A stretch of 64,000 nucleotides of DNA, taken from Mailhella massiliensis. Lineage in GTDB: Bacteria > Desulfobacterota > Desulfovibrionia > Desulfovibrionales > Desulfovibrionaceae. Positions 24,402 through 60,461 of this stretch are shown here, one piece after another. The notes under the pieces are model-generated. The model was not told the origin of the DNA and did not search any database. It saw only the letters and a list, made by a program, of their open reading frames with translations. Numbering within the stretch: the stretch's first letter is position 1; the number at the start of each line of letters is the position of its first letter. The stretch is taken from assembly GCF_900155525.1 (NCBI RefSeq), contig NZ_LT706937.1, positions 143,478-207,477 of the forward strand, given 5' to 3'. Made by a program: the position numbers and the translations under genes.

Positions 24402-24425
24402 GATGCAAAAACTCCTCTGTTGGAT

Positions 24426-25388: not shown

Positions 25389-25406
25389 GAAAAAACCCTT
25401 TCCCTT

Positions 25407-31883: not shown

Positions 31884-31957
31884 ATATCCCTCACTTGCAT
31901 CGCGCTCCGTCCATGCGGACTTCATGTCTGCAATTCAGATGGCGGTGCGGCACATCG

Positions 31958-33268: not shown

Positions 33269-34056
33269 CAGCCGCGCTGCAATACCGCGACCTGGAAAAG
33301 GTTGTCATCCACACCGCTATCATAGACAAACGGACTGAACTCCATAAGTGTCTGATGCTCTGTCTCAAGATTACGCATTCTTGCGCTTTTCACATTCCAG
33401 AAGCCTTGCTGCTGCTGAAGTTCGAGCACCTCATACACTCGGGAAAGTCCTTGATCCGTATAATATTCCAGGTACACAGGAATGCAGGTCTTCTTATCTA
33501 CCCACAATACGCGGCGGCGGACGGGATCATCCCTGTCCACGGGGACGGATTCCACCTTCCAGCACTCGTAAACGCCGCGCATATCCTCTCCCAGATAGGT
33601 GTGGGTATCTTTGCTGACATTGCGCCTGCCCATATCTATATCGTCATAAGTAAAGTCACTGCCCATGAAAAAGTCGTTGTTCGCCGAGCCGCTGATGCGG
33701 CGGACCTTTTTCATGGAAGGAATGTAGAGCCATTTGTCGTCATCTCTGCCGGGGGCGTCGTATGTCCAGGAAAGAAACTTTGTACCACGCACGTCTGCAG
33801 GTTCTTTGAAGACGATGATCGCCTTTCTGTCCATTCCGTAGTCTTTGGCGGTCTGCTCCATGACCCGCACACGTTTTGCGCCGCGCCTGTTGACAAGCGT
33901 CATGCTGACGGTGCCCTTCCGGTCTTCGCCGTCGGGGCGCATCCTCATTTTCATGATCACGTCCGCGCCGGTCAGCTCCTCCGCTCCTGCGAAGGAAGGT
34001 ATGACCAGCAGCACAAACGCAAGCAGCGCCAGTGCGCTCCTGATACGGTTGCGCAT
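33268..34056 (-). CDS. LolA-like outer-membrane lipoprotein-sorting family protein
   Basis: Periplasmic protein (262 aa) with a signal peptide (MRNRIRSALALLAFVLLVIP, cut near FAGAEE). ATG 34056 follows AGGAGGTTTTTT. The body, with VIMKMRMRPDGEDRKGTVSM, KFLSWTYDAPGRDDDKWLYI, FFMGSDFTYDDIDMG and the DRDDPVRRRVLWVDKKT stretch, matches the LolA-like outer-membrane lipoprotein-sorting family that is regularly encoded beside MMPL-type RND transporters. It probably carries a lipid or amphiphile across the periplasm. First gene of a three-gene operon, with a Fur-like site about 60 bp upstream, which would make the operon iron-regulated. Confidence 0.82.
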   Translation of the reverse strand: MRNRIRSALALLAFVLLVIPSFAGAEELTGADVIMKMRMRPDGEDRKGTVSMTLVNRRGAKRVRVMEQTAKDYGMDRKAIIVFKEPADVRGTKFLSWTYDAPGRDDDKWLYIPSMKKVRRISGSANNDFFMGSDFTYDDIDMGRRNVSKDTHTYLGEDMRGVYECWKVESVPVDRDDPVRRRVLWVDKKTCIPVYLEYYTDQGLSRVYEVLELQQQQGFWNVKSARMRNLETEHQTLMEFSPFVYDSGVDDNLFQVAVLQRG

Positions 34057-34113: not shown

Positions 34114-34132
34114 GAAGTTGAAAATCATTTTC
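34114..34132 (-). promoter_or_regulatory. Fur-like box upstream of LolA-like/RND operon
   Basis: GAAGTTGAAAATCATTTTC matches the classical 19-bp Fur consensus at 14 of 19 positions, including the whole central and right half AATCATT-T-TC. It lies in the gap between the ccr stop and the LolA-like start. Confidence 0.65.
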
Positions 34133-34159
34133 AAATTAAATTATTACCGGCAGCTCTTT

Positions 34160-35554
34160 TCAGGCCACGACACTCCGGTCTTCCAGAGAAATCCCGTCGC
34201 CACGGCGGAACAGGCGTATTTTTTCCTCTCCCACCTTCTGCCTGAGCTCATGATCCCGGACGCCCGCATTCTCATCCGGGGCGATGTTGAGAAAGCCGAG
34301 CTTGCCCATGTGCGTGCCCTTGTGAAGCATGGAAAAGGCCTCCGCCCCTTCGGAGAGAGGAAAGACTCTGGAAAGCGTGGGATACAGAAAGCCCTTGCCT
34401 ATGAGTCTTGCGGTCTGCACGGCCTCGTAATAGTTCGCCGCATGGGAGCCTATGATATGCTTGACGGTCTGCCACAGATAGCGGTTGTCGAACACATGGT
34501 CGTAGCCGGAGGTGGAACCGCATGTCACGACCTTGCCTCCGGGACGGGCCACGGCGACGCTGGCAGCGAAGGTGGAACGGCCCGTATGCTCGAATACGAT
34601 GTCGGGGTCCTCGCCTCCGGTGAGTTTCCGTATCTGAGCCTTGAGCCGGAGTATCTGGCGGTTCTTCGTGTGCCCGTGCTCATCGAGAAAGCGGTCTTCC
34701 CCATTGCCCCGGGGCAGTACGATGACCCTCTCGCAGCCCATTCTGCGCACCATGTCGGCCTTTTCCTCACTGGAAACCACCCCCACGGGAATACCGCCGC
34801 CGTTCAGGACGAACTGAATGGCGAAGGTGCCGAGTCCGCCCGAGGCTCCCCAGATCAGGACGTTGTCGCCCTGGCTCATCTGCGCGCCGTTCTTGGACAC
34901 CAGCATTCTGTAGGTCGTAGTGGCCACGAGCGTCATGGAGGCGGCCTCCACCCAGGTAAGGTGTTCAGGCTTGGGCAGAAGCTGATGTTCACGCACCAGC
35001 GTGAAATCCGCAAACGAACCGAAATTGGTTTCAAAACCGTAAGCCATGAGATGCGGGTCGCGTATTTCGTCGTCAAAGACTTCGGGAGAGGAGACGTCGC
35101 AGGTAGGCCCGAAGATCATGACTCTGTCGCCCGGCTTCCATCGCGTGACCGCAGAACCCGTGCGCACCACCACTCCCGCACCGTCGGTGCCGAGAATATG
35201 GTAATCGAGATTGTGCTTGGCGTTCACCGGAGAATAGCGGGAATATTCGCCGATGTAGTTGAATCCCGGAGAAGGTTCGAACAGAGAGGACCAGACGTTG
35301 TTGAAGTTGAGTGCCGAAGCCATCACCGCAACCAGCACCTCGCCCGGCCCCACTTCCGGCAGCGGAACCTCGTCGTAATGCAGGGAACGCCGCGGGTCCT
35401 TCTCATGGAAGGCCAGACCGCGGAACATGTCCGTTTCGTCCCGGTGCACCGTCATGGCGCTCATGGTGTCGGGCAGGGGAAGATGGGCGAAGTCCTCGGA
35501 AGAAGCGGACTTCGATTCCGAAAGTTCCACAAGATGTTTCAATGCTGCTTTCAT
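34160..35554 (-). CDS. ccr: crotonyl-CoA carboxylase/reductase
   Basis: NADPH-dependent reductive carboxylase that turns crotonyl-CoA (or another enoyl-CoA) into ethylmalonyl-CoA (or another alkylmalonyl-CoA). The protein has 464 aa, full family length, and shares long stretches with known CCRs: MSAMTVHRDETDMFRGLA, VAVMASALNFNNVW, KNGAQMSQGDNVLIWGASGG, LTGGEDPDIVFEHTGR and DNRYLWQTVKHIIGSHAANY. The CO2-pocket residues described for the Kitasatospora enzyme (Asn, Phe-Glu, His) have counterparts in NFNN, the GFETNFG segment (Phe174-Glu175) and His371. Carboxylation, not just reduction, is therefore expected. It is the last gene of the assembly-line operon, 34 bp after the type II thioesterase, and probably provides the extender unit of the PKS. 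Confidence 0.93.
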   Translation of the reverse strand: MKAALKHLVELSESKSASSEDFAHLPLPDTMSAMTVHRDETDMFRGLAFHEKDPRRSLHYDEVPLPEVGPGEVLVAVMASALNFNNVWSSLFEPSPGFNYIGEYSRYSPVNAKHNLDYHILGTDGAGVVVRTGSAVTRWKPGDRVMIFGPTCDVSSPEVFDDEIRDPHLMAYGFETNFGSFADFTLVREHQLLPKPEHLTWVEAASMTLVATTTYRMLVSKNGAQMSQGDNVLIWGASGGLGTFAIQFVLNGGGIPVGVVSSEEKADMVRRMGCERVIVLPRGNGEDRFLDEHGHTKNRQILRLKAQIRKLTGGEDPDIVFEHTGRSTFAASVAVARPGGKVVTCGSTSGYDHVFDNRYLWQTVKHIIGSHAANYYEAVQTARLIGKGFLYPTLSRVFPLSEGAEAFSMLHKGTHMGKLGFLNIAPDENAGVRDHELRQKVGEEKIRLFRRGDGISLEDRSVVA

Positions 35555-35588
35555 GGCAGTTTCCGTCGGGTAGAAGTTCGGTACGTCC

Positions 35589-36359
35589 TCAGAGAACGTA
35601 CATGAGAAGGGACTGATCTATGACCGCGACGACGTCGTCGAGCCAGCGGCGCACATAGAAGTGACCGCCGGGCCAGGTAAGTATGCTGCACGATCTGGAA
35701 GTGAAGTCCTGCCACGCTCTCGCCCTTTCCAGAGGGACGAGCAGGTCCCGTTCCCCGGCCATGACCGTCACGGGCACGGCCAGCGGTTCCGTCCGCCCGT
35801 CGAGCAGGGAAAGCAGAAGTTCGTGATCACTGAGCAGCGTTCTCTTCACGATCTGCAGGCTTTCCTCATCCAGCAAGACGGACTCCGGCACCGTGCCCGA
35901 CTGGAGGATGCGGCGCAGAAACTCCTCTTCCTCCGAGGGCCGTCCGGTCATTTCCGGCGGCCGCACGGGCACGGGAGCGGCGGAAAGAAAAAGATGCACC
36001 GGAGGCGTTTCGCCGCGTCGGAGCAGATATCGGGCGAACTGGAAGGCCAGAAGTCCGCCCATGCTGTGCCCGAAAAAAGCCATGGCGGAGGAAAAATACG
36101 GCCGCAGTCCCTCATACATAGCCTCGTACATCCGTTCCGCATTCATTATCGCTTTCTCCTCGAAACGGTCTTCATGTCCGGGAAGTTGTACGGGGACAAG
36201 ACTGATGTAGTCGGGCAGAAGCTTTTTCCAAGGTAGAAATGCGGATGCGCCTCCTCCCGCAAAGGGAAAGCAGAACAGTCTCACCCTTTCGTCGGGAGCT
36301 TGTCTGAAAAAACGCACCCAGCTCAAACTCTCTTCACTATTCAGCACGCTTTTCTCCAT
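35589..36359 (-). CDS. type II thioesterase (YbtT/PchC-like)
   Basis: Editing alpha/beta hydrolase that removes wrong or stalled acyl groups from carrier proteins; 256 aa. The N-terminal CFPFAGGGASAF, the nucleophile elbow AFFGHSMGGLLAFQ (Ser), the Asp in VMAGERDLLVP and the His in WPGGHFYVRR give a full catalytic triad. It lies 69 bp after the terminal NRPS gene and 34 bp before ccr in the same operon. A second enzyme of the same family is encoded at 59295. Confidence 0.92.
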   Translation of the reverse strand: MEKSVLNSEESLSWVRFFRQAPDERVRLFCFPFAGGGASAFLPWKKLLPDYISLVPVQLPGHEDRFEEKAIMNAERMYEAMYEGLRPYFSSAMAFFGHSMGGLLAFQFARYLLRRGETPPVHLFLSAAPVPVRPPEMTGRPSEEEEFLRRILQSGTVPESVLLDEESLQIVKRTLLSDHELLLSLLDGRTEPLAVPVTVMAGERDLLVPLERARAWQDFTSRSCSILTWPGGHFYVRRWLDDVVAVIDQSLLMYVL

Positions 36360-36428
36360 GGCCGTCGTTCCAGAAATCCAAAACTGCCAGAACGACGGCC
36401 CTCATCCGCCGGTGGCGGTTCTGCCACC

Positions 36429-39400
36429 TTACGGCTTCAAATCGCGTATGATCCGCATGATACCGGGAACATGTTCTCCCAATATGCAGTTAAAGTGATT
36501 GCCCGGCACATCGATGACTTCCACACGCTTTGCAGGCATGGTTCTCCAGAAGGGCCTCGGGTCGGGAATCCCCTGAAGAAGATCCGTGGCAAAAAAGTAC
36601 ACCAGCGTCCCTTGGTATGGATTCGGCGTATAGGTCTTGGCGGAGCCTACGGTAGCCTCAAACAGCCTGTATTGATGAACGAAGTCCTCAAAGGATATCT
36701 CGTCGGAGAGCAGATTATGCGAAGTGACGTAATCGAATATGGTTCTTATGCAGTCATCCAGGCTCATGGCCATGAGCGATTCCAGCTCCATGGCATCGGG
36801 GACAACGTCCGGTTGCTTCAGTACACAAAGAATAGGATCGTTCTCGAGACCGGAATAGATGTTCATGGGCAAAAAATAGGTTCCCAGATACATGAACAGC
36901 AGGCTGAGCTTGTGGGAAAAGGCTGCACCCGGCGCACCCGTATCGAAAGCCAGCAGATGCTCCACCTGTACGCCCTGCCGCTCAAGCTGCACCGCCAGTT
37001 CATACCCCAGCATCCCGCCAACGCAGAAGCCCGCAATAGAAATGCGTATGCCCGGCCTGCGGCGTACAAGATCCAGCACACCTTGTGCCCAGTAGGCCGC
37101 AAGTTCTTCCACAGTACGCAGCGGTTCAACGCTTCTGTCGTCTTTCCCCGGAAGGATACAGCCGTAGAAGTCCGCTTCATCCCGGCAGGCACGGGCAAAG
37201 TCGGAGAAAATCTCGCCTACTCGGCCCCGGCCTTCGGCAATACCTATCCACACTTTCTCTCTGCCGTTTTCCTGCATAGGCAGCAGCACCTGTCCGGCCG
37301 TGCCGGGACCGGACACATATGCAGCCATCTGCTCCAGCGTGTTCAGCGAATACAGTTCCTGCACGCCGAGTTCCACGCCGAATTCCTCATGAATGCGGGC
37401 TATGAGCACGGTAGCCAGCAGGGAATCGCCGCCGAGTTCAAAGAAGCTGTCGTCCAGGCCAGGTTCGTCGACCTGAAGCACGGCGGCCCACATGCGGGCC
37501 AGACGCTTCTGCACGTCGTTCTCCGGCGGACGCACCGTTCTGTTCTGCACAATACCGGCTTCCGGCACGGGCAGGGCCTTGCGGTCCGTCTTGCCGGAGC
37601 GATTGCGCGGAATAGCTTCCATCTCCACAAAGGTCGAGGGAATCATGTACGAGGGCAGTCTTTCTCTCAGAAAAGCTTCCATTTTTTCAGGCTCAAATTC
37701 CCACACCTCCAACGGTGAACGGGCGATGATGACATTCTGCTCCGCACCGTCCACGGTACGGCACTGCCTCACACAGTCAAAACCAGCAAGTCTGAGCTGC
37801 TCTTCCCACTGGTTTCCGTCGAGCAGGGGATGCAGCGGCCTGAGCTCCGTATCCTCGAACACGTCGAAGCCCTGCTGGAGTCCCATAGTGATGTCGTGAT
37901 CCTTGTAAAATATGGTCTGCTCGATGATAAACATCACGCCGCCGGGCTTGAGCAACCTACGAAGAGCCGCCAAGGAAGGGGCTACCCGCTTCACGTCGTG
38001 CAGCACGCTTGCAGCGATGATGGCGTCAAAGGAATGAAGCTCAAATCCCTGCACCACGGGGTCTTCGTCAAGATCGAAGAGACGACAATGGAAAAACGGC
38101 CGTGCCCCGAATTTTTCTTCCGCATTCTGAAGAAAGTAACGCGAAATATCGGTAAAGCAGAAGCCTTTCGTCGTATCGGGGAGGACGGGAAGAACCACGC
38201 CCGTCGCTCCGCCATGGCCACCACCGACTTCCAGAATATTCAAAGGGTGATCCTCTGCCATGGCCGCCACCGCATCGCGGATAATCTGATAAGAATACCG
38301 GAATACGGCTCCATAGAGACCTTTGACACTGCCCGAGGCATAGACTTCCGCGGAATGACGCTTCTCAAGCAGAAGATCCGTCATGCTCTTCGCCTCCGAG
38401 GCGAGGAAACCGAGTCCTGAACCGGAAAAGGCGTTCTGCACGGCCTGCGCCGAAGTGAAGGCAAAGGGCTTCTCCAGGCGGAAATGCTCGCCACGACGGG
38501 AAAGAAAGCCCGCCTCCTCAAGATTGAGAAGCGCTCTTTTCAGCCAGCGTCCATAGCGGGGGCGTATGCCCGTCATACGGAGAATTTCCTCCACGTCGCG
38601 GCTTTCTCCCGTTTCCCTGTATACGCCGAGTTCGTAGAGAGAAGCCTGCACGGCCGCCTCATACAGGGCCGCCCCCACTCCCATGTTCTTCGCGTAATCC
38701 TTGCGCCGGCGCTCTTCCGCAATGCCCGCGATGTTCTCGTCCATGCGGGAAACCTTCTCCCACATGGCGTCGGCGTCGTTCCACTCCACCTTGCGGCGGC
38801 TGTGCAGTCCGTCGTTGCCCAGACTCGTGAAGTACGCCGCAACCCGGGGACTTTTCTTCTCGCCGTAGGTCTGCACCACAGCCTCGCGAATACCGGGATG
38901 CCTGAGCAGAGTATGCTCAATTTCGCCGAGTTCCACACGAAATCCATTGATTTTTATCTGATTATCTTCTCTTCCAAGGAAAACGACATGGCCGTCGGGG
39001 TGGAAAAAGCCCCTGTCGCCCGTACGGTAAAGCCTTTCTCCCGTAACGGGATGTCTGACGAAGGAACGCGCCGTTTTTTCCCTATCATGCCAGTAGCCGT
39101 CGGACAGGCCTTCGCCGCCTATGTACAGATCACCCGGCACATACTCGGGACAGACCCTCATGCACTCATCAAGGACATGAATACTCTGATTGGCCAGAGG
39201 ATAACCGTAGGGAATACTTTCCCGATCTCCGTCCACATCGCCCACGGGGTAGAAGATGGACCAGATGGCGGCTTCCGTCGCACCGCCCAGACTTATCACC
39301 TCGGCCCCGTAGTGCCTGCGGATGCGGCCGGGAAGCTCCACCGGCAGCCAGTCGCCGGAAAGCAGTACAAGGCGAAGCGTGCCCTCTGCGGAACCGTGAA

Positions 39401-41711
39401 GCGCCTCCTTGTACTCCATGAACATCTTCATCATGGCAGGAACGGTATTCCATACCGTCACCCGCTGCCTTTCCACGACATCCAGCCAGTGTGCGGGTTC
39501 ACGGAGCTGTCCGGCATCGGGCATGACCACGGTACCGCCGGCGGCAAGCATACCGAAGATGTCCCATACCGACAGATCGAAGCCGAGGCTGGCCAGCGCA
39601 AGCACCCTGTCCTGCGGCCCCACACGGAAGCGGGCATTGATGTCCGCAATGGTGTTCACCGCCGCCCTGTGGCTTATCATGACGCCTTTGGGCATACCGG
39701 TGGAACCGGAAGTATAGATGACGTAGGCAAGGTCGGAACTCTTCTGTACGATCGTACGGGCACAGAGTTCCTCCGCGCTTCCTTCGGGAAGCGTGTCCAC
39801 AAAGATCAGACGACGTCCGGCAAGAAGGCCGAGCTTTTCCTGAAGATGCGACTGCGAGAACACACAGTGCACGTCCGCATCGTCAAGGATGGCCGTCAGT
39901 CTTTCCATGGGCATGTCGGGATCAAGAGGCAGATACGCCGCCCCCGCGAACTGCGCGGCCAGCACGGCCACCACCTGTTCCCAGCCCTTTTCCATGATGA
40001 CGGCCACCAGCTCCCCGGGTCTGACACGGCCGTCGATACCCTTCGCCGCTTCCGACACGCGCCCGGCCAGTTCGCCGTAGGTCAGCGAACGGCCCGGCGC
40101 AGCCACGGCCTGCCGTTCGGGAAAAGCCCTGACGCTTTCCACAAAAAGTCCGTGCAGACATTCGTCGCGCACAGGAGAGGCCGTGGCGTTGTACGCCTCT
40201 CTTGCCTGAAGCTGACGCGCCGGCAGTTCCACGACGTCCTTCCTCTTCCAGAGCGATTCGTCGTCGGCAAGGCGCTCAAGAAGGTTCACATAGGCATCCA
40301 TCATGCTTTCCAGATAGCCTTCATGGAAATATTCCGCACGTACGTCCCAGTGAATGTTGAGCTGCCCCGCAGACTCATAGACCTGATGGTCGAGCAGCAG
40401 CTGCGGCGTCTGACTGGAAGTGAATATCTTTTTCACCGGATGACCGTCGAACATCATGCCTTCCAGACTGTCGCCGTAGTCGCCGAGCAGGAAGGTACTG
40501 GTGAACACAACCTCAAGGTATACTTGTTCCGAGGCGGAACGACCACGATTGAGTTCCCGCAGAACATCCACGCCGCCGAACTGCCTGTTGTCAAGATCAC
40601 TCCAGAGACGATCTCGCAGGGCAAGTGCACGTTCTTCAAAACTCGCATCAGGGTCGTCGCGCACTTCCAGAAGAAGCGTGTCGGTAAAATCGCCGATGAT
40701 GTCGTTGATTTCCCTGTGCAGGGGAAGTCTGTTAAAAAGTGTCAGATTCAGACAGAAGCTACGCTCTGCATTCCATCGACGGAGCACTTCGGAAAATACG
40801 GCCAACAGTATACTCGTAGGCGACAGGCCTATCTTCGTACCGTACTCCTTCAGTTTGCTCCAACGAACGGAATCAAGATGCCCCTCTAGCGGCTTGCTCA
40901 CGGGTTCCCCCACATGCTCCTCCTTCAGCACCGGCATACGGGGCCCAGGGGAAAGGGTGGGAATGCGGTCGAGCCAGTACTGCCTTGCCTGCCTGTAGGA
41001 CTCCATACTGCGGCGCTCCTCCAGAGACAATACATAGTCACGGAAAGTCAGTTCCAGCTCAGGCAGCGTCAGTGACGGATCATTATAGAATGCCTGGAGT
41101 TCCTTCATCATGAGCGGCAGGCTGAGCACGTCGGCATTCAATCCCTCAAGGCTGACATGCATACGAAAAGTATGTTCGTCAATGCGGGAAACATAGACGT
41201 CATACATGGGCCAGACATCCACAGGCTTGATTTTCTGGCGCAGTTCATCACGAATTTCCATCAGCACGCGCTGCCTCTCCTCCTCCGCCTTCCCGGAAAG
41301 GTCGAAGTATCTCACCTCAAAGGGCGGTACATGCTCAAGAATTTGTTGCTGACCGGTCTTATAAATAACGCAGCGCATCATGTCGTGTCGCGCCACGATC
41401 TTGCGCCAGGCGTTAGTATAGCGCTCGACATCCAGATCTTCGGTGTCCATCTCGAAATAGACGTGACTTGAAACATTGCTTGCACCAAGCGAGCCGTTTT
41501 CTCTGCCTATCATGTAGGCAAGCTGTATGTCGGTAAGGGGAAAGGGCTTGTATCTGTCTTCCGGGCGCGGAATGATGACGGGGGCCTTGTCCTCGGTCTT
41601 TTCCAGGGCGAAGTCGTCCTTTTCCAGAAACATCGCCAGAAGGGATTCCTGCTCTTCCGAAAGGCCGATGCCGCCGGGCAGCAGGGATTTATCGTGATGT
41701 ATGCTCGTCAT
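36429..41711 (-). CDS. NRPS Cy-A-MT-PCP-TE, terminal module (PchF-like)
   Basis: Last module of the assembly line, 1760 aa, close in size and order to PchF (1809 aa). The cyclisation domain covers about 50-480; its motif reads E-GLNA-D-VL-S (189-197), with Glu for the usual first Asp. The adenylation core (about 490-940) has YTSGSTGMPKG near 665, and the pocket read by eye (D-L-W-N-L-S-L-I-W-K) indicates cysteine. A SAM methyltransferase (about 1040-1340, motif LEVGGGHGGATG near 1165) is inserted before NRSGKTDRKAL. The carrier serine is Ser1430 (ELGGDSLL). The thioesterase (about 1500-1760) has GFCVGG with Cys1563 at the nucleophile place and a late His (GNHFNC). It should add, cyclise and methylate the last Cys, then release the product. 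Confidence 0.93.
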   Translation of the reverse strand: MTSIHHDKSLLPGGIGLSEEQESLLAMFLEKDDFALEKTEDKAPVIIPRPEDRYKPFPLTDIQLAYMIGRENGSLGASNVSSHVYFEMDTEDLDVERYTNAWRKIVARHDMMRCVIYKTGQQQILEHVPPFEVRYFDLSGKAEEERQRVLMEIRDELRQKIKPVDVWPMYDVYVSRIDEHTFRMHVSLEGLNADVLSLPLMMKELQAFYNDPSLTLPELELTFRDYVLSLEERRSMESYRQARQYWLDRIPTLSPGPRMPVLKEEHVGEPVSKPLEGHLDSVRWSKLKEYGTKIGLSPTSILLAVFSEVLRRWNAERSFCLNLTLFNRLPLHREINDIIGDFTDTLLLEVRDDPDASFEERALALRDRLWSDLDNRQFGGVDVLRELNRGRSASEQVYLEVVFTSTFLLGDYGDSLEGMMFDGHPVKKIFTSSQTPQLLLDHQVYESAGQLNIHWDVRAEYFHEGYLESMMDAYVNLLERLADDESLWKRKDVVELPARQLQAREAYNATASPVRDECLHGLFVESVRAFPERQAVAAPGRSLTYGELAGRVSEAAKGIDGRVRPGELVAVIMEKGWEQVVAVLAAQFAGAAYLPLDPDMPMERLTAILDDADVHCVFSQSHLQEKLGLLAGRRLIFVDTLPEGSAEELCARTIVQKSSDLAYVIYTSGSTGMPKGVMISHRAAVNTIADINARFRVGPQDRVLALASLGFDLSVWDIFGMLAAGGTVVMPDAGQLREPAHWLDVVERQRVTVWNTVPAMMKMFMEYKEALHGSAEGTLRLVLLSGDWLPVELPGRIRRHYGAEVISLGGATEAAIWSIFYPVGDVDGDRESIPYGYPLANQSIHVLDECMRVCPEYVPGDLYIGGEGLSDGYWHDREKTARSFVRHPVTGERLYRTGDRGFFHPDGHVVFLGREDNQIKINGFRVELGEIEHTLLRHPGIREAVVQTYGEKKSPRVAAYFTSLGNDGLHSRRKVEWNDADAMWEKVSRMDENIAGIAEERRRKDYAKNMGVGAALYEAAVQASLYELGVYRETGESRDVEEILRMTGIRPRYGRWLKRALLNLEEAGFLSRRGEHFRLEKPFAFTSAQAVQNAFSGSGLGFLASEAKSMTDLLLEKRHSAEVYASGSVKGLYGAVFRYSYQIIRDAVAAMAEDHPLNILEVGGGHGGATGVVLPVLPDTTKGFCFTDISRYFLQNAEEKFGARPFFHCRLFDLDEDPVVQGFELHSFDAIIAASVLHDVKRVAPSLAALRRLLKPGGVMFIIEQTIFYKDHDITMGLQQGFDVFEDTELRPLHPLLDGNQWEEQLRLAGFDCVRQCRTVDGAEQNVIIARSPLEVWEFEPEKMEAFLRERLPSYMIPSTFVEMEAIPRNRSGKTDRKALPVPEAGIVQNRTVRPPENDVQKRLARMWAAVLQVDEPGLDDSFFELGGDSLLATVLIARIHEEFGVELGVQELYSLNTLEQMAAYVSGPGTAGQVLLPMQENGREKVWIGIAEGRGRVGEIFSDFARACRDEADFYGCILPGKDDRSVEPLRTVEELAAYWAQGVLDLVRRRPGIRISIAGFCVGGMLGYELAVQLERQGVQVEHLLAFDTGAPGAAFSHKLSLLFMYLGTYFLPMNIYSGLENDPILCVLKQPDVVPDAMELESLMAMSLDDCIRTIFDYVTSHNLLSDEISFEDFVHQYRLFEATVGSAKTYTPNPYQGTLVYFFATDLLQGIPDPRPFWRTMPAKRVEVIDVPGNHFNCILGEHVPGIMRIIRDLKP

Positions 41712-41741
41712 ACCTTTTCCAAAGGGTTGAAGGGGGAAGGA

Positions 41742-46376: not shown

Positions 46377-46440
46377 AGTCACCTCATTTCTTCCATGGTT
46401 TTCCGCCGCCATGTTCTCTCCGCCGCGCTCTTCCCCGCCG

Positions 46441-49400
46441 TCAGTTTCCGGCCCGCCGTATCCGGCCGAGGCGCTTTTTGCGCATGGCCGCACGGTCGGA
46501 TGTTTCGCGGCCCGCGCCGCCCCCTTCTCCGTCACCGGAAAGGAATGCCGCCATGGTGCGGATATCCGGGTATTCGAACACGCTCACCAGCGGAAACTCA
46601 CGCGCAAAACGCCGTACCAGTTCCCTGTGCAGTCTCACGGCCAGCACCGAGGTGCCGCCTGCATCGAAAAAGTTTTCGTCGATGCCCGAAGGTCTGCGTC
46701 CCAGCACGGCGGCCCAGGCGTCGGCTATCCTCTTCTCCGCTTCCGACGAAGCTTCGACCGCGGGCCTTTCCTGAACGGAACAGCCCTCCGCCATATCCCG
46801 AAGGCGCTTTCTGTCCACCTTGCCGTTGGAGGAAAGAGGCATGGCTTCCAGCTTCACTACGCCGGAAGGAACCATGTACCCGGGAAGTTTTTCCCGTACC
46901 GTCAGAAGAAGTTCTTCCGTATCCACCGTTTCTCCGGTCACTACGAAGGCGACAAGCCTGCGTTCCGACGCATGTTTCCCGGCGACCTCCACAACCGCCT
47001 CATGTACGTCTCCATGGGAAAGCAGCACGGACTCGATTTCTCCCAGCTCGATGCGGTGTCCGCGGATTTTCACCTGAAAATCCCTGCGGCCGAGAAATTC
47101 CACGTTACCGTCCGGCATCATGCGCCCCATGTCGCCCGTCCGGTACATCCGCTCGCCCGTCACGGGATGGAGGAAAAAGCTCTCGGCCGTACGTACCGGG
47201 TCTCTCCAGTAGCCGCGGGCAAGCCCCGCGCCTGCGATGTACAGTTCCCCGGGCACATGGTCGGGACAATCCTCAAGGCGCGAATTGAGCACATGCCAGC
47301 GCTGATTGCGCAGCGGCCTGCCGTAAGGCACGCTCTTCCATCCGGGAGCCACCTCCTCTATGGGATAGAAAATCGACCAGATGGAGGCTTCCGTTGCGCC
47401 GCCGAGACTGTACTGCTCCGCCCGGGGAGCCGCTCTGCGCAGCCGCTCTGGAAGATCAAGGGGAATCCAGTCGCCGCTCATAAGCACAAGGCGCAGCGGA
47501 ATACTCCCCGATTTACCGGTAAATTCCATATATTCCACCAGCATCTGTACAAGCATGGGCACGGAGTTCCATATCGTCACGCCTTTTTCCGCCGCCAGTT
47601 CCAGCCAGTGGGAAGGATCCTTCAGACGGTCCGCATCCGGGAGCACCACCGCCGCTCCGGCAAGGAGCGCCGCCCAGATGTCATACGCGGACAGGTCGAA
47701 CTGCAGCGCGGAAAGTCCGAAAAGCCTGTCCTCCGGCGTAAGATGAAAACGCCCGTTGATGTCGAGCACGGTATTCACCACGCCCCGGTGGTCGATGGCC
47801 ACGCCCTTGGGACGTCCGGTGGAACCGGAAGTATAGATGACATAGGCAAGGTCTTCTTCCGTCACGGCAGCATCCGCGGCTTCTTCGGCAGGGCCCAGGC
47901 AGTCCACGGCCAGAACGCCGATTCCCCCGGGCAGCCTCAGCGCAGGAACATGACGCTGCTGCACAAGCAGTACGCCGAGCCCCGCCTCCCGGACGATCTG
48001 CTCAAGACGTGCGGCAGGCACATGCACATCCACCGGCACATAGGCGGCCCCGCAGAGCACGACGCCTTCCGCGGCCGCCACCTGCTCCCAGCCCTTGTCC
48101 ATGACTATGCCCACAAGATCTCCGCGCTTCACTCCGGCCTGTGCAAGCCTGCCCGCCACGGCGCAGGCCCGCCGATACAGCTCCCCATGGGTCAGCGTCA
48201 GGTCCGGGGTTATCACGGCAGGCCTGTCCGCATGTTCGACCGCAGCCCTGCGGACAAGAGAAGCCAGCGTGCCCGCAGGCGTTTCCCAGGCCGTATCGTT
48301 GTAAAGAGCGCGGGCACGCAGCTGCGCATCCGACAGCGTCATGACGCTCTGCCTCGTCCACAGCTCCGCATCTGAAGACAGGCGCTGAAGAAGATCCACA
48401 TAGGCGCAGAACATCTCCTCCACCATGCCCTCGGGAAAAAGTCCTTCCACCACATCCCAGTTGAGCATGAGCGCCCCGTCCTGCTCATAGGTCTGATGGT
48501 CCAGCCAGACCTGCGGCGTCTGCGTGAGGCTGGTCACGAGCGTGCCCAGACCGGAAAAGCTCGACGCATCCCGCCCGGCCGCACCGAACCCCGCCGCCCC
48601 CGTAAACACCACGGGCATACGCATGGGCCGCCCCGCGGCAGCAAGCTCCCGCAGAACACGCACTCCGCTTACCGTGCGATGGCTCATGTCTTCCCACAGA
48701 CGGCTCTGGATGCGCCTCACCCTGCCGAGGAAGGAGGCTTCGGCATCCATATCCACTTCCAGAAGTTCCACGGAGGAAAAATCCCCTACGATGTCGTTCA
48801 CCTCGGGGTGCAGCGGCAGACGGTTGAACACCGTGAGATTCAGCGTGAACCGGGGCGAGGCGCTCCAGCGGCCTATGACCTCGGCATACACCGCCGCCAG
48901 CACGCTGGACGCGGACAGGCCCAGATCCCGTATGCGGGCCTGAAGAGCCGTCCATACGCCGGGTTCGAGCGAAGAGGCGAACCGTATCGTGCGGGCGCAG
49001 GAAAGTTCCCCGGGCTGCCGGGCAAGAGGCAGTTCGGGGGCAGGAGGAAGCGTATCCAGCCTTGCCTTCCAGTACTCGAAGTCCCTGCGCCTGCGTTCCG
49101 AGCCTTCCAGTTTCTCTTCCGCCAGTACATAATCGCGGAAGGAAAGGGAAAGCGGACGAAGTTCCGTCTCCGGTTCGGCGTACAGTTTCCGCCATTCCTC
49201 AAGCAGAAGAAAAATACTCCATGCGTCGGCGATCATGGCGTCGAAATCAAGGAAAAGGCGAAGCCGTTCCTTCCCTCTTTCTCCGTATCGCGCCGCGCGG
49301 ATGTCGAAAAGCGGCCAGACGTCCGCGGGAAGCATCTGGGAAGACATCTCCCGGCGGATTTTCGTCATGATGCTTCCGGCATTCTCCTCCCCGCCGAGTT

Positions 49401-52400
49401 CGTACACGCGGAAGGCATACGGCTCCGCAGCAGGCAGCACCTTCTGCGTTCCGTCCGGCAGAAAGACCGCACGCAGCATGTCGTGCCTCCTGATGAGCAT
49501 GTTCCATGCCCGGGCAAGGCGTTCAAGATCCATGCCGTCGTTGTCGAACTCGAAATAGACGTGACTGGAAACATTGCCGAGCTCATACGCCCCGATGCGT
49601 CCTATCCAGTAGGCGTGCTGCACGTCCGTCAGCGGGAAGGGAAGGAACCTGCCGTCGGCATTCTCCTCCACGCGGGGCAGCTCCTCTTCCTGCCGCTTTT
49701 CCCCGCTGTCCAGACATGCCGCCAGTCGGGATATGTCCGGGCAGCGGAACAGCATGTCCAGGGAAACCTCGCGTTTCAGTTCCCTGCGCATTTCCGCCAC
49801 AAGGTGCGTGGCCACAAGAGAATCGCCGCCGAGCTCAAAGAAGTTGTCGTGAGTTCCCACCTCGGGCAGATCAAGAACGCGCCGCCACACAAGGGCGAGT
49901 GCCTGTTCCGTAGCCGAAAGAGGCCCCGCCTCTTCCTGCGCCTTTTCCTCAAAAGCAGGCAGCGCCTTGCGGTCGAGCTTGCCGTTTGCGGAAAGAGGCA
50001 GCTGATCAAGCCTTCCGTACACGGAAGGAATCATGTATTCCGGCAGACATCCGGCAAGATGCGCGTCGAGCCCGGCAAAAAGAGCCTCATCCCCGTTTTC
50101 AAAGGCCTCGCTCACCACATAGGCGCCGAGCCTGCGTATGCCCCTGGCTCCGGTAACGATGACGGCCACGGCATCCTTCACGGCGGGGTGCCGCCTGAGG
50201 GCGGCCTCTATCTCGCCGAGTTCGATGCGGTGTCCCCGCACTTTTACCTGACTGTCGGCCCGGCCGAGAAACTCTATGGTACCGTCCGGCCAGAAGCGTC
50301 CCATATCACCCGTTCTGTACCAGCGTACGCCCTTTTCTTCGAGAAAACGTGCTGCGGAAAGCTCCGCATCGCCGAGATAGCCGCGAGCGACCCCGGCCCC
50401 GCCGATCCACAGTTCCCCCTCGACAAGATCCGGGCAGTCCCTGCCTCTGCCGTCCACCACGCGGTAGCTCTGATGCAGAAGCGGACGACCGTAGGGAATC
50501 GACTTCCAGAAGGACGGCACGGGGACGGAAACTTCCATGATGTTCGACCATACGGCGGCCTCCGTCGCGCCCCCCATGGCGATGAAGCGCGCCTGCGGCG
50601 CACGGAGCGCAAGACGGGAGGGCAGATCCAGTCCTATCCAGTCGCCGGAAAGCAGCGCGGCCCGCAGGGGCAGACTCTGCCCTCTTCCCTCGGCGGCGAC
50701 AAGGAGCATGTCCAGCAGTACGGGGACGGAATTCCACACCGTCACGCCCCATCGGAGGACAAGGTCGAGCCAGTCCTCGGCGCTGCGCCGCATGGATTCA
50801 CCCATGGTCACCAGTCTGGCCCCGGCAGACAGCGTGCCGAAAATATCGTACACGGAAAGATCGAAATCCAGGGAGGACACTGCAAGGCAGGCGTCTCCCT
50901 CGCCGAGACACAGCCTGTCGTTGATGTCTCGTATGGTGTTCGCCGCGCTTTTGTGCTCTATGGCCACACCCTTGGGTTCCCCCGTGGAACCGGACGTGAA
51001 AATGACGTAGGCAAGATCCGCGGCATCCGCTTCCACGGGAGCGTCCAGAGGCGGCACGGAAAAGCGTCCCGCCATATCCACAAATTCCGTCCCGTCAGGA
51101 AAAGAAGAGGGTTCCACCGCGTCGGCGGAACCGAGAACGAAGCGGCCGCCCGTGCGGCGAAGTATGCGCTCCCGCCTTGCCGAAGGCTGCGAAGGACTGA
51201 CCGGAACATAAAACGCTCCGGCGGCAAGCACGCCGAGCACGGCTACGACCTGCTCCCTGCCCCTGGGCAGAGTGACGGCCACGGGCATACCTTTCTTCAC
51301 GCCTCGTTCACGAAGAAGAGCCGCCGTGCACAGGGCATCGCGCGCAAGTTCCGCATAGGTGAACATCTCGCCGGTCACGCCGTCCACAAGGGCCGGAACG
51401 TCGCCGCGCTCCTGCGCAAGAGCAAAAAACTCCGCGTGAAGAAGGCGTTCTGGCGCAGGCCCGGCCAGCGCCCTGTCCCTTTCCCTCGCAACGCGCTGAT
51501 GTTCCGGCAGCACATCGGGCACCATATCCCAGCGCGCGGCGTCTTCGGAAAGCCATTCCAGAAGCTTTCCGCAGGCAAGAAGCATATCCTCCACCACGCC
51601 TTCCGCAAAAAGATCCTCGGCCGTATCCCACGCAAGAGTAAGCGCCCCGTCGGCTTCCTCATAGACCTGATGATCCAGCCAGACCTGAGGCGTCTGCGAA
51701 AGCATGTCGTGCATCTCGCCGAGGTGTTCCCTGCACTCGGAGGTGAGAAGAGGCGTACCGAGATTGCAGGCGAACACCACCGGAGCAAGGAACGCTTCGC
51801 CGGGACGGAGTTTCGCAAGTTCCCGCTGTACGCGCACACCGGAAAAGGAAGAATGCGCCGCATTTTCGTAAAACCGGGCCTGAACGTCCTTCAGCCGGGC
51901 AAAAAAGTCCTTTTCTTCCGTGCAGTCCACATCCACCAGCAGAAGACTGGTGAAATCCGCCACCACGTCTTCCAGGCCGGCTTCTCCCGTCTCGCGGTCG
52001 AACAGGGGAAGATTGATGAAAAAGCGGGAACAGGCGCTCCAGCGGTCCAGCACTTCGGCATAGGCCGTAAGCAGCACCATAGCAGGCGTGACGCCCCGGC
52101 GCCCGGCCGTATCCTTCACGGCCTTCCATGCTTCCGGAGCGAGACGGAAGACCCGGCGCCGGTATGCAGCCTTCTCCACCAGAGACGGATCGCACCTGAG
52201 CGGAAGCGCGGGCGGCCCGGGCAGCAGGGCAAGGCGGCTCTTCCACCACTTCTCGTCGCGCTCCGCATCGGCACGGATCCGCTCCGCCCTTTCCGCCAGA
52301 TAATCGGAAAAACGCCAGCCGGGAGGAGCCGCAGGCACAACGCCGCGCGCATAGGCGGCCGCCAGATCGCGCAGCACGATACAGAAGCTCTGCACGTCCG

Positions 52401-53097
52401 CCACCAGCAGATCGATATCAAAGAACAGGCGCGTACGGCCGCCGGAAAGCAGGCACAGCTCAAGCCCGGCCAGCTTTCCCGCCGACACGTCGAACCTGCG
52501 GCAGGAAAGCCTTTCCCGCAGCTCCGCCAGAAAGGCGGATTCCTCTTCTCCGTTCATATGGGCGCAGTCATGAACGATCAGAGGATCGGAAGCCGGTTCC
52601 GGCAGAATGCGCTGCCTGCCGTCCTCGAGGAAGGCCGTTCTCAGCATGGCATGATGACCGAGAACGATGTTCCACGCCCCGGCCAGACGAACGGGGTCCA
52701 CGTCGCGCCCGTCAAGCTCCATGTAGGCATGGCAGCCCACGCCGCCGAGAGCCTGCCCGTCTCTGCGACCTATCCAGTAGGCATACTGAACATCCGTCAG
52801 CGCAAAAGGAGCGTCCCCGTCTCCCGGGCCTTCCTGCCTGAGCGCCGGAACCTCCAGTCCCGCCCGGAGCTTCAGAAGTTCCATCCAGCGGCCGAGCGCA
52901 GGTTCCGCCATCATCTCGGCAAAGGTAACCTTCACTCCGGCCTTGCGCCACCGGCTCACAAGACGCATGATCTTCAGGGAATCCAGTCCCAGCCCGACAA
53001 GATTGTCCGTATCGGTGAAATCCGTCGTTGCGACCAGTTGTTCCACACTCCGGCGGACAACGCCGTACTCTATGACTGCAGAGTCCTTCACTGCCAT
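46441..53097 (-). CDS. NRPS ArCP-Cy-A-PCP-Cy-A-PCP (HMWP2-like)
   Basis: Starter NRPS, 2218 aa. The aryl carrier has Ser40 (LGLDSLKIM) and accepts the salicyl group. Cy1 (about 95-540) has the intact motif D229-LLVA-D-VQ-S237. A1 (about 550-1050) has SGSTGEPKG near 702, and its pocket reads D-L-Y-N-L-S-M-V-W-K. PCP1 is Ser1093. Cy2 (about 1153-1600) has D1286-AMIA-D-AW-S1294. A2 (about 1620-2080) reads D-L-Y-N-L-S-L-I-W-K, the standard cysteine code. PCP2 has Ser2150 in the variant DAGGTSVLAV. Two cysteines should be added and cyclised to thiazolines. HMWP2 of yersiniabactin has a single A domain for both cysteines; here each module has its own. The start lies 39 bp after the ligase stop. Confidence 0.94.
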   Translation of the reverse strand: MAVKDSAVIEYGVVRRSVEQLVATTDFTDTDNLVGLGLDSLKIMRLVSRWRKAGVKVTFAEMMAEPALGRWMELLKLRAGLEVPALRQEGPGDGDAPFALTDVQYAYWIGRRDGQALGGVGCHAYMELDGRDVDPVRLAGAWNIVLGHHAMLRTAFLEDGRQRILPEPASDPLIVHDCAHMNGEEESAFLAELRERLSCRRFDVSAGKLAGLELCLLSGGRTRLFFDIDLLVADVQSFCIVLRDLAAAYARGVVPAAPPGWRFSDYLAERAERIRADAERDEKWWKSRLALLPGPPALPLRCDPSLVEKAAYRRRVFRLAPEAWKAVKDTAGRRGVTPAMVLLTAYAEVLDRWSACSRFFINLPLFDRETGEAGLEDVVADFTSLLLVDVDCTEEKDFFARLKDVQARFYENAAHSSFSGVRVQRELAKLRPGEAFLAPVVFACNLGTPLLTSECREHLGEMHDMLSQTPQVWLDHQVYEEADGALTLAWDTAEDLFAEGVVEDMLLACGKLLEWLSEDAARWDMVPDVLPEHQRVARERDRALAGPAPERLLHAEFFALAQERGDVPALVDGVTGEMFTYAELARDALCTAALLRERGVKKGMPVAVTLPRGREQVVAVLGVLAAGAFYVPVSPSQPSARRERILRRTGGRFVLGSADAVEPSSFPDGTEFVDMAGRFSVPPLDAPVEADAADLAYVIFTSGSTGEPKGVAIEHKSAANTIRDINDRLCLGEGDACLAVSSLDFDLSVYDIFGTLSAGARLVTMGESMRRSAEDWLDLVLRWGVTVWNSVPVLLDMLLVAAEGRGQSLPLRAALLSGDWIGLDLPSRLALRAPQARFIAMGGATEAAVWSNIMEVSVPVPSFWKSIPYGRPLLHQSYRVVDGRGRDCPDLVEGELWIGGAGVARGYLGDAELSAARFLEEKGVRWYRTGDMGRFWPDGTIEFLGRADSQVKVRGHRIELGEIEAALRRHPAVKDAVAVIVTGARGIRRLGAYVVSEAFENGDEALFAGLDAHLAGCLPEYMIPSVYGRLDQLPLSANGKLDRKALPAFEEKAQEEAGPLSATEQALALVWRRVLDLPEVGTHDNFFELGGDSLVATHLVAEMRRELKREVSLDMLFRCPDISRLAACLDSGEKRQEEELPRVEENADGRFLPFPLTDVQHAYWIGRIGAYELGNVSSHVYFEFDNDGMDLERLARAWNMLIRRHDMLRAVFLPDGTQKVLPAAEPYAFRVYELGGEENAGSIMTKIRREMSSQMLPADVWPLFDIRAARYGERGKERLRLFLDFDAMIADAWSIFLLLEEWRKLYAEPETELRPLSLSFRDYVLAEEKLEGSERRRRDFEYWKARLDTLPPAPELPLARQPGELSCARTIRFASSLEPGVWTALQARIRDLGLSASSVLAAVYAEVIGRWSASPRFTLNLTVFNRLPLHPEVNDIVGDFSSVELLEVDMDAEASFLGRVRRIQSRLWEDMSHRTVSGVRVLRELAAAGRPMRMPVVFTGAAGFGAAGRDASSFSGLGTLVTSLTQTPQVWLDHQTYEQDGALMLNWDVVEGLFPEGMVEEMFCAYVDLLQRLSSDAELWTRQSVMTLSDAQLRARALYNDTAWETPAGTLASLVRRAAVEHADRPAVITPDLTLTHGELYRRACAVAGRLAQAGVKRGDLVGIVMDKGWEQVAAAEGVVLCGAAYVPVDVHVPAARLEQIVREAGLGVLLVQQRHVPALRLPGGIGVLAVDCLGPAEEAADAAVTEEDLAYVIYTSGSTGRPKGVAIDHRGVVNTVLDINGRFHLTPEDRLFGLSALQFDLSAYDIWAALLAGAAVVLPDADRLKDPSHWLELAAEKGVTIWNSVPMLVQMLVEYMEFTGKSGSIPLRLVLMSGDWIPLDLPERLRRAAPRAEQYSLGGATEASIWSIFYPIEEVAPGWKSVPYGRPLRNQRWHVLNSRLEDCPDHVPGELYIAGAGLARGYWRDPVRTAESFFLHPVTGERMYRTGDMGRMMPDGNVEFLGRRDFQVKIRGHRIELGEIESVLLSHGDVHEAVVEVAGKHASERRLVAFVVTGETVDTEELLLTVREKLPGYMVPSGVVKLEAMPLSSNGKVDRKRLRDMAEGCSVQERPAVEASSEAEKRIADAWAAVLGRRPSGIDENFFDAGGTSVLAVRLHRELVRRFAREFPLVSVFEYPDIRTMAAFLSGDGEGGGAGRETSDRAAMRKKRLGRIRRAGN

Positions 53098-53136
53098 GTA
53101 TTCCTACCTGTTTCCAAAAATTGTCTGCCGGAAAAA

Positions 53137-54738
53137 TCAGGATCGTGCGGAGCTTCTCCGGGCGGCCATGCCGGCCAGAGCGCGCTTGTCCACCTTGCCC
53201 ACGCTCGTGACGGGCCAGGCCTGCACCACTTCAAGCTGATCGGGATATTTGAAGCGCGCCATACCGCTTTTTTCAAAATGAGCATACACGTCCGCAAGCG
53301 CGGGCCCGTCGCCGTCCGTCATGATCCAGGCGCAGATGCGTTCCCCAAGCTCCGCATCCTCCACGCCCACAACGGCGGCATCGGTCACGCCGGGCATGGT
53401 CCGCAACACGGTTTCCACCTCCACCGGGGCGATCTTCTCTCCTGCCCGGTTGATCTGTTCCTTGATGCGGCCGCAGACCACGATGCGGCCCTCCGGGGTG
53501 AATCGGGCCACATCGCCCGTACGGTAGTAGCCGTCTTCCGTCACGGCATGGCGGTTCACCTCGGGAGCGCGGTAATAGCCCTGAATGGTATAGGGGCCCC
53601 GAACGATCATTTCCCCGGCCTGCCCGGCGGGCACGTCCCGTCCGTTCTCATCCACCATGCGCACTTCATCGGCGGGAGAAAGGGGCCGGCCCTGCGTGTT
53701 GCAGATGATCTCCTCATCATCCTCCAGCGCCGTGGTGCAGATGAGCCCTTCCGCCGTACCGAAAACATTGACCATTCTGCATCCCAGCACGGGTTCCACT
53801 CGGGCCGCCATTCCCGGATCTACTGCCGAACCGCCTGCTTCGATAAAGCGCAGAGAAGAAATATCGGCCTCCTCCCACTCCCGCACTTCCAGCCACAGAT
53901 TGAGCAGCGCCGGAACAAGCGCCGTAAAGGTCACCTTTTCCCGTTCGATGAGGGCAAAGGCCTCCTCCGGCCCCGCGTTTCCGGCAAGCACCACCTTGCC
54001 TCCGTGCATCAGCGTTCCGATGATGCCCGGCGCAGAAAGAGAAAAGTTGTGTGCGGCGGGCAGCACCACAAGACAGACGTCCTGTTCCGTAAGATGCAGG
54101 CGCTCCGATGCGGCCCTCGCGTTATAGGCGTAGTCGGTATGACGACGCGGAATGAGCTTGGGAGTCCCCGTGGTCCCCCCCGAAAGCAGAAGCAGCGCAG
54201 TATCCGTGAAGGAAGGTTCGCGGACCTCCGGTTTTCCGTTCCGTATGCGCAGAGTCTCCAGGGGAATCGTGCCTTCAATCTTCCCGTTGTCGGTAATGAT
54301 GTATCTGAGATAGTCGTGCCCCTGCCGCAGAGCCTCCACCGTGGAACGGTATTCCACGGAACCGGAGCTGTCGGTCGTAATGTAGGCCACAGGTTCCGCA
54401 AGAGCGCAGAGCGCCGTCACATCAGCCTGACGGCTGGCGGGAAGAGCCATGATGGGAACGGCGCCGAGGCGGAACAGCGCAAACGCCGTCACGATGAGCG
54501 AAAGACGGTTGGGAAGCTGCACCAGCACCCTGTCGCCGGGCATGATGCCGAGCTTTGCCATACCTGCGGCATATTCGTCCGCCATGCCGTCCAGCTCGCC
54601 GTAGCTCACCGAACCGTCGGGAGCCACCACGGCCGTTCTGTCGGCATGTCTGCGCGCGGAAATCCGCAACTCTTCTCCCAGCGTTCTGGGCTGCCAGTAT
54701 CCTTTTTCCACATATTCCCGTTCAGGAACCTGATACAC
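53137..54738 (-). CDS. salicyl-AMP ligase (YbtE/PchD-like aryl acid activating enzyme)
   Basis: Stand-alone adenylating enzyme (533 aa) that activates an aryl acid and loads the NRPS aryl carrier domain. Motifs seen: LLSGGTTGTPKLIPR, the aryl-acid pocket HNFSLSAPG, VFGTAEGLICTT, YYRTGDVARFTPEGRIVVCGR, RIKEQINRAGEKI and the C-terminal lysine in SVGKVDKRAL. The pocket segment differs from both usual types (ACPG in salicylate enzymes, SSPG in dihydroxybenzoate enzymes), so the acid cannot be read from it alone; the pchB gene in the same island argues for salicylate. The start is GTG 54738, with AAGGAG upstream. First gene of the assembly-line operon, preceded by a Fur box and the 21-bp motif. 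Confidence 0.9.
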   Translation of the reverse strand: MYQVPEREYVEKGYWQPRTLGEELRISARRHADRTAVVAPDGSVSYGELDGMADEYAAGMAKLGIMPGDRVLVQLPNRLSLIVTAFALFRLGAVPIMALPASRQADVTALCALAEPVAYITTDSSGSVEYRSTVEALRQGHDYLRYIITDNGKIEGTIPLETLRIRNGKPEVREPSFTDTALLLLSGGTTGTPKLIPRRHTDYAYNARAASERLHLTEQDVCLVVLPAAHNFSLSAPGIIGTLMHGGKVVLAGNAGPEEAFALIEREKVTFTALVPALLNLWLEVREWEEADISSLRFIEAGGSAVDPGMAARVEPVLGCRMVNVFGTAEGLICTTALEDDEEIICNTQGRPLSPADEVRMVDENGRDVPAGQAGEMIVRGPYTIQGYYRAPEVNRHAVTEDGYYRTGDVARFTPEGRIVVCGRIKEQINRAGEKIAPVEVETVLRTMPGVTDAAVVGVEDAELGERICAWIMTDGDGPALADVYAHFEKSGMARFKYPDQLEVVQAWPVTSVGKVDKRALAGMAARRSSARS

Positions 54739-54800: not shown

Positions 54801-54819
54801 GAAAATGAAAGTCATTATC
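54801..54819 (-). promoter_or_regulatory. Fur box of the assembly-line operon
   Basis: GAAAATGAAAGTCATTATC matches the classical Fur consensus at 16 of 19 positions. It lies about 65 bp upstream of the ligase GTG start and is the best Fur-like site in the window, so the operon is probably repressed in iron-replete cells. Confidence 0.75.
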
Positions 54820-56797: not shown

Positions 56798-56809
56798 AGA
56801 AAGGCGCTC

Positions 56810-60349: not shown

Positions 60350-60461
60350 TTATCCGTTGACTTTGCGGCCCTGTCTCTCCTATGCTTTTCCCGTGTCGTA
60401 CGGTATGCGCCGTATTCCACAGGCCGCACAATCCCTACCCGTCCCTTGTAAAGGATCATCT

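Follow-up and report, generated by a model that had tools for sequence, protein, structure and literature searches.

We propose that an operon on the minus strand, at 34160-54738 of the 64,000-nucleotide stretch of Mailhella massiliensis DNA analysed here (hereafter the window, C13:143478-207477 of a 3.47 Mb genome denoted G000, whose host is likely a gut-dwelling relative of Desulfovibrio), encodes a yersiniabactin-type assembly line, and that this line quite probably makes an aryl-thiazoline siderophore in which an alkyl-branched extender unit, supplied by the operon's own crotonyl-CoA carboxylase/reductase (CCR), takes the place of the gem-dimethyl group. As judged from the sequence, the alkyl branch is well supported, and the pairing of a CCR with a yersiniabactin-type line is real and conserved. 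The proposal is carried by the acyltransferase (AT) of the polyketide synthase (PKS), since an AT with a non-malonyl specificity motif makes an alkyl-branched aryl-thiazoline siderophore likely, and by the occurrence of such motifs together with a CCR across the bacterial family.

Organization of the assembly line

The operon consists of six genes, which are given below in the order of transcription. The domains are abbreviated as ArCP, aryl carrier protein; Cy, cyclization; A, adenylation; PCP, peptidyl carrier protein; KS, ketosynthase; KR, ketoreductase; ACP, acyl carrier protein; MT, methyltransferase; and TE, thioesterase; NRPS stands for nonribosomal peptide synthetase.

53137..54738, minus strand: salicylate/dihydroxybenzoate-AMP ligase for starter loading (TIGR02275, 545.6 bits, under the equivalog cut-off of 723.55)
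46441..53097, minus strand: NRPS1, ArCP-Cy-A-PCP-Cy-A-PCP (Pfam: three PP-binding, two Condensation and two AMP-binding matches)
41742..46412, minus strand: PKS, KS-AT-KR-ACP, with AT motif RAGH (Pfam KS, AT, KR and PP-binding; NCBIfam)
36429..41711, minus strand: NRPS2, Cy-A(MT)-PCP-TE, with the methyltransferase embedded in the A domain and the hand-read A code DLWNLSLIW (Pfam)
35589..36359, minus strand: type II thioesterase (PF00975, 1.4e-34)
34160..35554, minus strand: CCR (TIGR01751, 456.6 bits, cut-off 378.55)

The spacing between successive genes from the ligase through the CCR is 28-69 bases, and the domain matches lie far above chance (best E 1.3e-156, Pfam). The order and the coordinates are thus those that an initial annotation, made from the sequence alone, had claimed, as verified by the Pfam and NCBIfam domain matches, and the CCR is indeed the final gene, beyond which come a Fur-like palindrome (Fur, ferric uptake regulator) and then a unit of LolA-like, DUF1302 and MMPL genes. 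It was also claimed that the PKS has no C-methyltransferase, which agrees with the family searches, since neither its Pfam matches nor the 25 listed from NCBIfam include a methyltransferase; the window PKS, of 1556 aa when the start common to its homologues is taken, is then without the domain that gives the gem-dimethyl group of yersiniabactin. The starter ligase has as its closest solved structure the salicylate-AMP ligase 5wm2 (E 2.6e-151), as is expected of a yersiniabactin-type line. In the two A domains of NRPS1, manual reading of the segments gives DLYNLSMVW and DLYNLSLIW; like DLWNLSLIW of NRPS2, these are cysteine-type codes.

In the proposed route, the ligase would load salicylate and NRPS1 would condense and cyclise two cysteines; the CCR would convert an enoyl thioester, with NADPH and CO2, into an alkylmalonyl unit, which the PKS would add and the ketone of which its KR would reduce; and NRPS2 would add an alpha-methylated cysteine, with the TE releasing the acid. 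The iron complex would then return via a FyuA-like receptor and a YbtP/Q-like pair of ATP-binding cassette (ABC) proteins, under Fur and AraC control. With an ethyl branch and three rings closed, the predicted product is C21H25N3O4S3, with a computed [M+H]+ of 480.108, to be compared with 466.092 for a methyl branch and 452.077 for the unbranched compound. The initial annotation had proposed to recognize the ethyl branch by mass. This does not hold: the groups CH(C2H5) and C(CH3)2 are isomers, so that the predicted product with an ethyl branch equals didehydro-yersiniabactin in mass, and the branch is not provable by mass alone.

Motif of the acyltransferase and its pairing with the CCR

The specificity motif of the window AT reads RAGH, which is neither the malonyl motif HAFH nor the methylmalonyl motif YASH, and has small residues in their place. 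According to PMC6490886, ATs that take unusual alkylmalonyl units typically have smaller residues in this motif, for example SPGH, and PMC3943440 reports a VPGH motif. In the close PKS clade all 12 ATs carry RAGH or RPGH, while the 99 AT segments read from 98 of the 108 other PKS listed comprise 81 HAFH, 9 VAAH, 2 HGFH, 2 RAGH and 5 singletons. The motif is therefore consistent with the earlier claim of an AT for alkylmalonyl rather than only malonyl units, HAFH being replaced by RAGH.

The pairing was surveyed in 288 genomes of the family. With the window CCR as query at E 0.001, 166 of the 288 genomes give a match, nearly all to other dehydrogenases; a CCR is present in 10, nine of them at E < 1e-100 and the tenth, G037, as a partial sequence at the edge of a contig (3.7e-29). 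It shares its contig with NRPS genes of this kind in 9 of these 10 genomes, and in the remaining one, G066, the contig that carries it is 5.1 kb long and has an MMPL homologue next to the CCR. This linkage rejects the CCR as a chance neighbour and bears out the view that it belongs with the cluster. A PKS match at 1e-30 is found in 88 of the 288 genomes, 10 of which have the CCR. The AT motif is RAGH, RPGH or KAGH in 9/9 CCR-bearing genomes with a readable AT (G084 is unread), including the G037 locus L197, which reads KAGH and where two further GHS matches are not ATs; by contrast, it is of the xFH type in 59/59 CCR-free genomes read. The CCR-free genomes with a PKS number 78, of which 17 were left out where the match ends at or before query residue 588, that is, in the KS part, and two, G045 and G095, yielded no AT motif that could be read; the reading covers the listed places in each genome and not every PKS, and many of the CCR-free ATs come from other, distant PKS kinds. 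The Fisher value for this contrast, 1.2e-9, has one genome miscounted and ignores relatedness.

It is noted that the CCR-linked ATs form one clade in a quick tree (SH-aLRT 97), and as far as the tree tells their xGH motif arose once. However, beside this same AT clade stand two deeply separate CCR lineages, that of the window and that of G036, G078 and G043, divided by a branch of 1.61, and G057 has the layout of the latter three genomes with a window-type CCR. On these sequences, the independent element of the pairing is the CCR and not the AT motif. The clusters have two layouts. That of the window is found in G000, G190 (of the same genus as the host) and G016, and parts of it in G066 and G084; the other, in G057, G036, G078 and G043, is longer and contains two PKS pieces.

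A related PKS occurs in G045 (locus L138, 7904-12214), where the AT has GQGAG replacing GHSxG, with the active serine lost, and no CCR is present.

Carboxylase residues and substrate pocket of the CCR

No CCR other than the window copy was found in the host genome, and all 7 CCR proteins scored pass the TIGR01751 equivalog cut-off. The CO2-binding residues of the Kitasatospora setae enzyme are N81, F170, E171 and H365 according to the available text of PMC10966969. With the chain numbering taken as the paper's +2, which fits all four residues, they correspond to N85, F174, E175 and H371 of the window CCR. Since the Asn, Phe, Glu and His are all kept, the sequence supports the earlier claim that the protein acts as a carboxylase. 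In the CCRs of the G036 type, Tyr stands for the CO2-binding Phe, like in two Streptomyces enzymes listed.

The residue immediately after the catalytic His (H371) is Ala in the window CCR, where canonical CCRs have Phe. This position is Gly or Ala in 26/26 members of the window CCR clade and Phe in 93 of the 94 other CCRs listed; the CCRs of G036, G078 and G043 (loci L112, L114 and L116) have Cys. By register it aligns with position 362 of CinF, a 2-octenoyl-CoA carboxylase/reductase, which we take to be a Gly forming part of a wide pocket, so that the window CCR would share with CinF a small residue at this place. Overall the window CCR is nevertheless closer to the crotonyl enzymes, at 518.7 bits versus 451.4 bits to CinF. 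With a small residue for the pocket Phe, the pocket may accept chains longer than crotonyl, and therefore the branch may extend beyond ethyl. The earlier prediction of an ethyl or longer branch made with the CCR is thus retained on the sequence evidence.

Salicylate genes and siderophore-type surroundings

Further from the operon, the window carries genes for the starter unit:

17065..17607, plus strand: PchB-type isochorismate pyruvate lyase (PF01817; PchB 2h9d, E 3.3e-32)
17741..19003, plus strand: EntC-like isochorismate synthase (PF00425, 1.5e-79; EntC, 7.3e-48)

Two chorismate-binding genes were found in the genome, this EntC-like one beside the PchB homologue and another in a 504-aa frame; the one-gene salicylate synthase of the YbtS type, as in the yersiniabactin (ybt) system, is not what the window has. 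Adjoining the salicylate genes, at 18957-19976, is a 2-amino-3,7-dideoxy-D-threo-hept-6-ulosonate synthase, above two NCBIfam cut-offs, which may feed the shikimate route.

The operon is surrounded by the following features:

54994..57844, minus strand: TRAP transporter DctM, DctQ and DctP, upstream of the ligase (Pfam)
54801..54819, no strand: Fur-like box, 16/19 consensus positions, 62 bases upstream of the ligase start (1 match, 0.00 expected)
34119..34133, no strand: second Fur-like palindrome, between the CCR and the LolA-like gene (pattern match)
33268..34056, minus strand: LolA-like periplasmic lipoprotein carrier (PF17131, 2.3e-56), with ATG behind AGGAGG; the listed open reading frame (ORF) reaches 34134
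31958..33268, minus strand: DUF1302 protein (PF06980, 4.6e-6)
29520..31925, minus strand: MMPL/RND-type transporter (PF03176)
25600..29155, minus strand: two ABC half-transporters, YbtP/YbtQ-like (Pfam)
24501..25442, minus strand: AraC-family regulator (PF12833)
22278..24437, minus strand: TonB-dependent receptor (Pfam), with the pesticin (FyuA-type) receptor 4epa as closest solved structure (E 2.2e-37)
21000..22188, minus strand: ExbB and ExbD (Pfam)

On the sequence, the box in front of the ligase gene may mark an iron-regulated promoter. A shorter Fur pattern has 5 matches in the window versus 0.86 expected, 3 of the 5 lying inside the ExbD and receptor genes. Of the ABC pair (25600-27360 and 27353-29155), the solved-structure search covered the latter gene, for which the top matches are full-size eukaryotic transporters and the best half-size ones YbtPQ 6p6i (8.3e-99) and IrtA. 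A FyuA-type receptor and, counting half-size proteins only, one YbtP/Q-type ABC protein are thus present. The DUF1302 protein is possibly an outer-membrane barrel, which is a guess. Judged by their nearest solved relatives, the receptor, the importer and the salicylate genes are of siderophore type, and the assignment of the cluster to that type is upheld.

Supply of the extender and points against the proposal

It might be supposed that the CCR serves the ethylmalonyl-CoA pathway of acetate assimilation. This is ruled out because the mutase domain PF01642 has no match in the host genome, with 8 of 14 control genomes matching, and the CCR lies inside the operon. As to the origin of the enoyl thioester, we can offer the guess that it comes from fatty acid synthesis. 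Three further genes lie near the right end of the window:

58543..59412, minus strand: 4'-phosphopantetheinyl transferase (PF01648)
59295..60065, minus strand: second type II thioesterase (PF00975)
60357..60698, plus strand: stand-alone carrier protein (PF00550)

The stand-alone carrier protein, which may take part in the enoyl supply, shares 47% identity with the ACP encoded next to FabF in this genome; it did not turn up in those cluster stretches of relatives that were searched.

Several observations weigh against the proposal. The first concern the substrate. No crotonyl-CoA route was found in the host genome, where thiolase and 3-hydroxyacyl-CoA dehydrogenase stay under cut-off, neither an acyl-CoA dehydrogenase nor an HpaB_N domain is seen, and the sole crotonase-family protein is MenB. 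The second concern the motif. Arg or Lys at its first place is absent from the motifs quoted in the available text of PMC6490886 and PMC3943440, and two PKS outside the clade, P0134 and P0182, also carry RAGH. In a survey of named genomes, comprising 77 loci with a PKS profile match from the best 80 of 479 relatives, the AT segment is readable in 69 loci, and xGH occurs in four: L006, which is the locus of a Mailhella metagenome-assembled genome (MAG) of the Desulfovibrionaceae on contig NZ_CALUWY010000124.1, L043 (an Aminicenantes MAG, KAGH), L035 (Actinacidiphila, SAGH) and L065 (Bradyrhizobium, VGGH). In the fetched DNA of these 77 loci a CCR at E 1e-40 is found only in L006, the other three xGH loci being without one. 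As xGH is seen beyond the family without a CCR in the fetched DNA, the motif alone does not establish that a CCR lies close by. Moreover, since the CCR-linked ATs are one clade, the contrast of 9 versus 59 genomes rests on a single origin.

The remaining points concern the aryl-thiazoline part. The Cy motif of NRPS2, the third of the line, reads ExxxxDxxS and not DxxxxDxxS, with Glu replacing the first Asp in 4/4 sequences (the window and G190, G016 and G066, at loci L006, L105 and L194), and closure of the third ring is therefore uncertain. The EntC-like frame is without ATG, GTG or TTG near the N-terminus, its beginning reading in another frame, which means either that the isochorismate synthase gene is interrupted or that there is an assembly error. 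In G190 and G016, 2 of the 4 genomes examined, one chorismate-binding enzyme only, of TrpE size, is seen, and some members of this group may obtain their salicylate from external sources.

Alternative explanations

An extended form of the proposal, which we regard as tentative and would not rate as probable, is that the clusters make a metallophore family with a tail longer than ethyl: the replacement of the CCR pocket Phe by Gly, Ala or Cys would admit enoyl thioesters from fatty acid synthesis, perhaps on the cluster's carrier protein, the LolA/DUF1302/MMPL unit would carry the lipid-like siderophore across the envelope, and the related bil cluster of an uncultured Bilophila, published in 2025 (PMC11934131), would have stalled in Escherichia coli without the extender.

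Another explanation, compatible with an alkyl branch, is that the metabolite is a signal or an antibacterial aryl-thiazole and not an iron carrier. The bilothiazoles, obtained from the bil cluster, were weakly antibacterial and, when tested in a preliminary way, did not bind metals significantly, as stated in PMC11934131, and the MMPL/LolA/DUF1302 unit adjoining the operon is export-like. However, the bilothiazoles are shunt products that lack the PKS part, and the operon is surrounded by the FyuA-like receptor, the YbtP/Q-like ABC pair, ExbB/ExbD, the AraC regulator and the Fur-like boxes, so that we consider this explanation unlikely.

It can also be argued that the PKS loads malonyl-CoA, giving an unbranched polyketide unit, and that the CCR serves something else. 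Malonyl-CoA was predicted for BilK in the sister bil cluster (available text of PMC11934131), and the lack of a crotonyl-CoA route found in the genome and the xGH motifs apart from any CCR seen are what this argument would lead one to expect. It is at odds with the motif RAGH in place of HAFH, with the co-occurrence of CCR and AT in the family and with the lack of an ethylmalonyl-CoA pathway for the CCR to serve, and appears quite improbable. Finally, it appears equally improbable that the CCR converts acryloyl-CoA, or another short substrate like it, into a methylmalonyl-CoA extender that gives a single methyl branch, as the AT is without YASH and Gly or Ala for the canonical Phe in the CCR clade points to a larger pocket, although a CCR is reported in the available text of PMC8252502 to be tolerant of acryloyl-CoA, and the genome, having no methylmalonyl-CoA mutase domain, would require another source of such a unit.

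Other features of the window

Apart from the predicted siderophore genes, type I-F CRISPR-Cas genes are located at 4805-11710, namely Csy4, Csy3, Csy2 and Cas3 fused to Cas2, with an ORF at the Csy1 place (7287-8498) that has no Pfam match. The contig end, at 60700-64000, is gene-poor and of lower GC, with an HxlR regulator.

Comparison with known systems

The core architecture of the line is shared with the bil cluster. As far as the available text of PMC11934131 goes, that cluster belongs to the same bacterial family and has the same order of a ligase, a two-cysteine (Cy-A-Cy-A) NRPS, a KS-AT-KR PKS and a Cy-A-CMT-T-TE protein (CMT, C-methyltransferase; T, thiolation), with similar gene sizes (9,956 bp for bilKL versus 9,954 in the window; 6,690 for bilJ versus 6,657). 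It differs in having a second AMP-ligase and a HIT protein, neither of which is seen among the window ORFs scanned, and the main text of the paper contains no word beginning with crotonyl, reductase or bilN; judging by gene order, we would guess that bilN follows the thioesterase gene, as the CCR does in the window. Expressed in E. coli BAP1, bil gave bilothiazoles, termed shunt products, with no larger product evident, and its authors raised the possibility that bilKL lacks activity or that its product is unstable. Were BilK a PKS of the type seen in the window, the stall would be explained by E. coli having no alkylmalonyl extender. With respect to the earlier statement that no salicyl-thiazoline siderophore built with a CCR is described, our literature search likewise found none in the texts available, one review linking ethylmalonyl-CoA to another compound; the core architecture, however, is already published as bil.

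If the proposal is true, this would be, to our knowledge, the first salicyl-thiazoline siderophore line using a CCR-made extender; it would also explain concretely why bil yields nothing beyond shunt products when expressed in E. coli, and would thereby open a route to the true metabolite of an anaerobic lineage of the gut from which few compounds are known. From the pairing of CCR and AT, moreover, one could predict the side chain for further clusters in the family.

The window resembles the yersiniabactin system in the salicyl-thiazoline logic, one reducing PKS module, the terminal MT and TE, the FyuA-like receptor, the YbtP/Q-like importer and the AraC regulator. By contrast with it, the window PKS is without a C-methyltransferase, an A domain is present in each Cy module, a CCR is present, and salicylate would come from PchB- and EntC-like genes and not from a one-gene synthase. 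Note also that no thiazolinyl reductase of the YbtU type is found among the window ORFs scanned, the rest of the genome not having been searched. With pyochelin the window has in common salicylate genes of the PchA/PchB kind and a last-module A domain with embedded MT, while the pyochelin system is not known to include a PKS module or a CCR. The actinobacterial CCR-fed PKS, such as that of ossamycin, have a dedicated CCR and a small-residue AT motif, as here; according to the available text of PMC6490886 those lines are of macrolide type, whereas the window has a one-module PKS within a siderophore-type NRPS.

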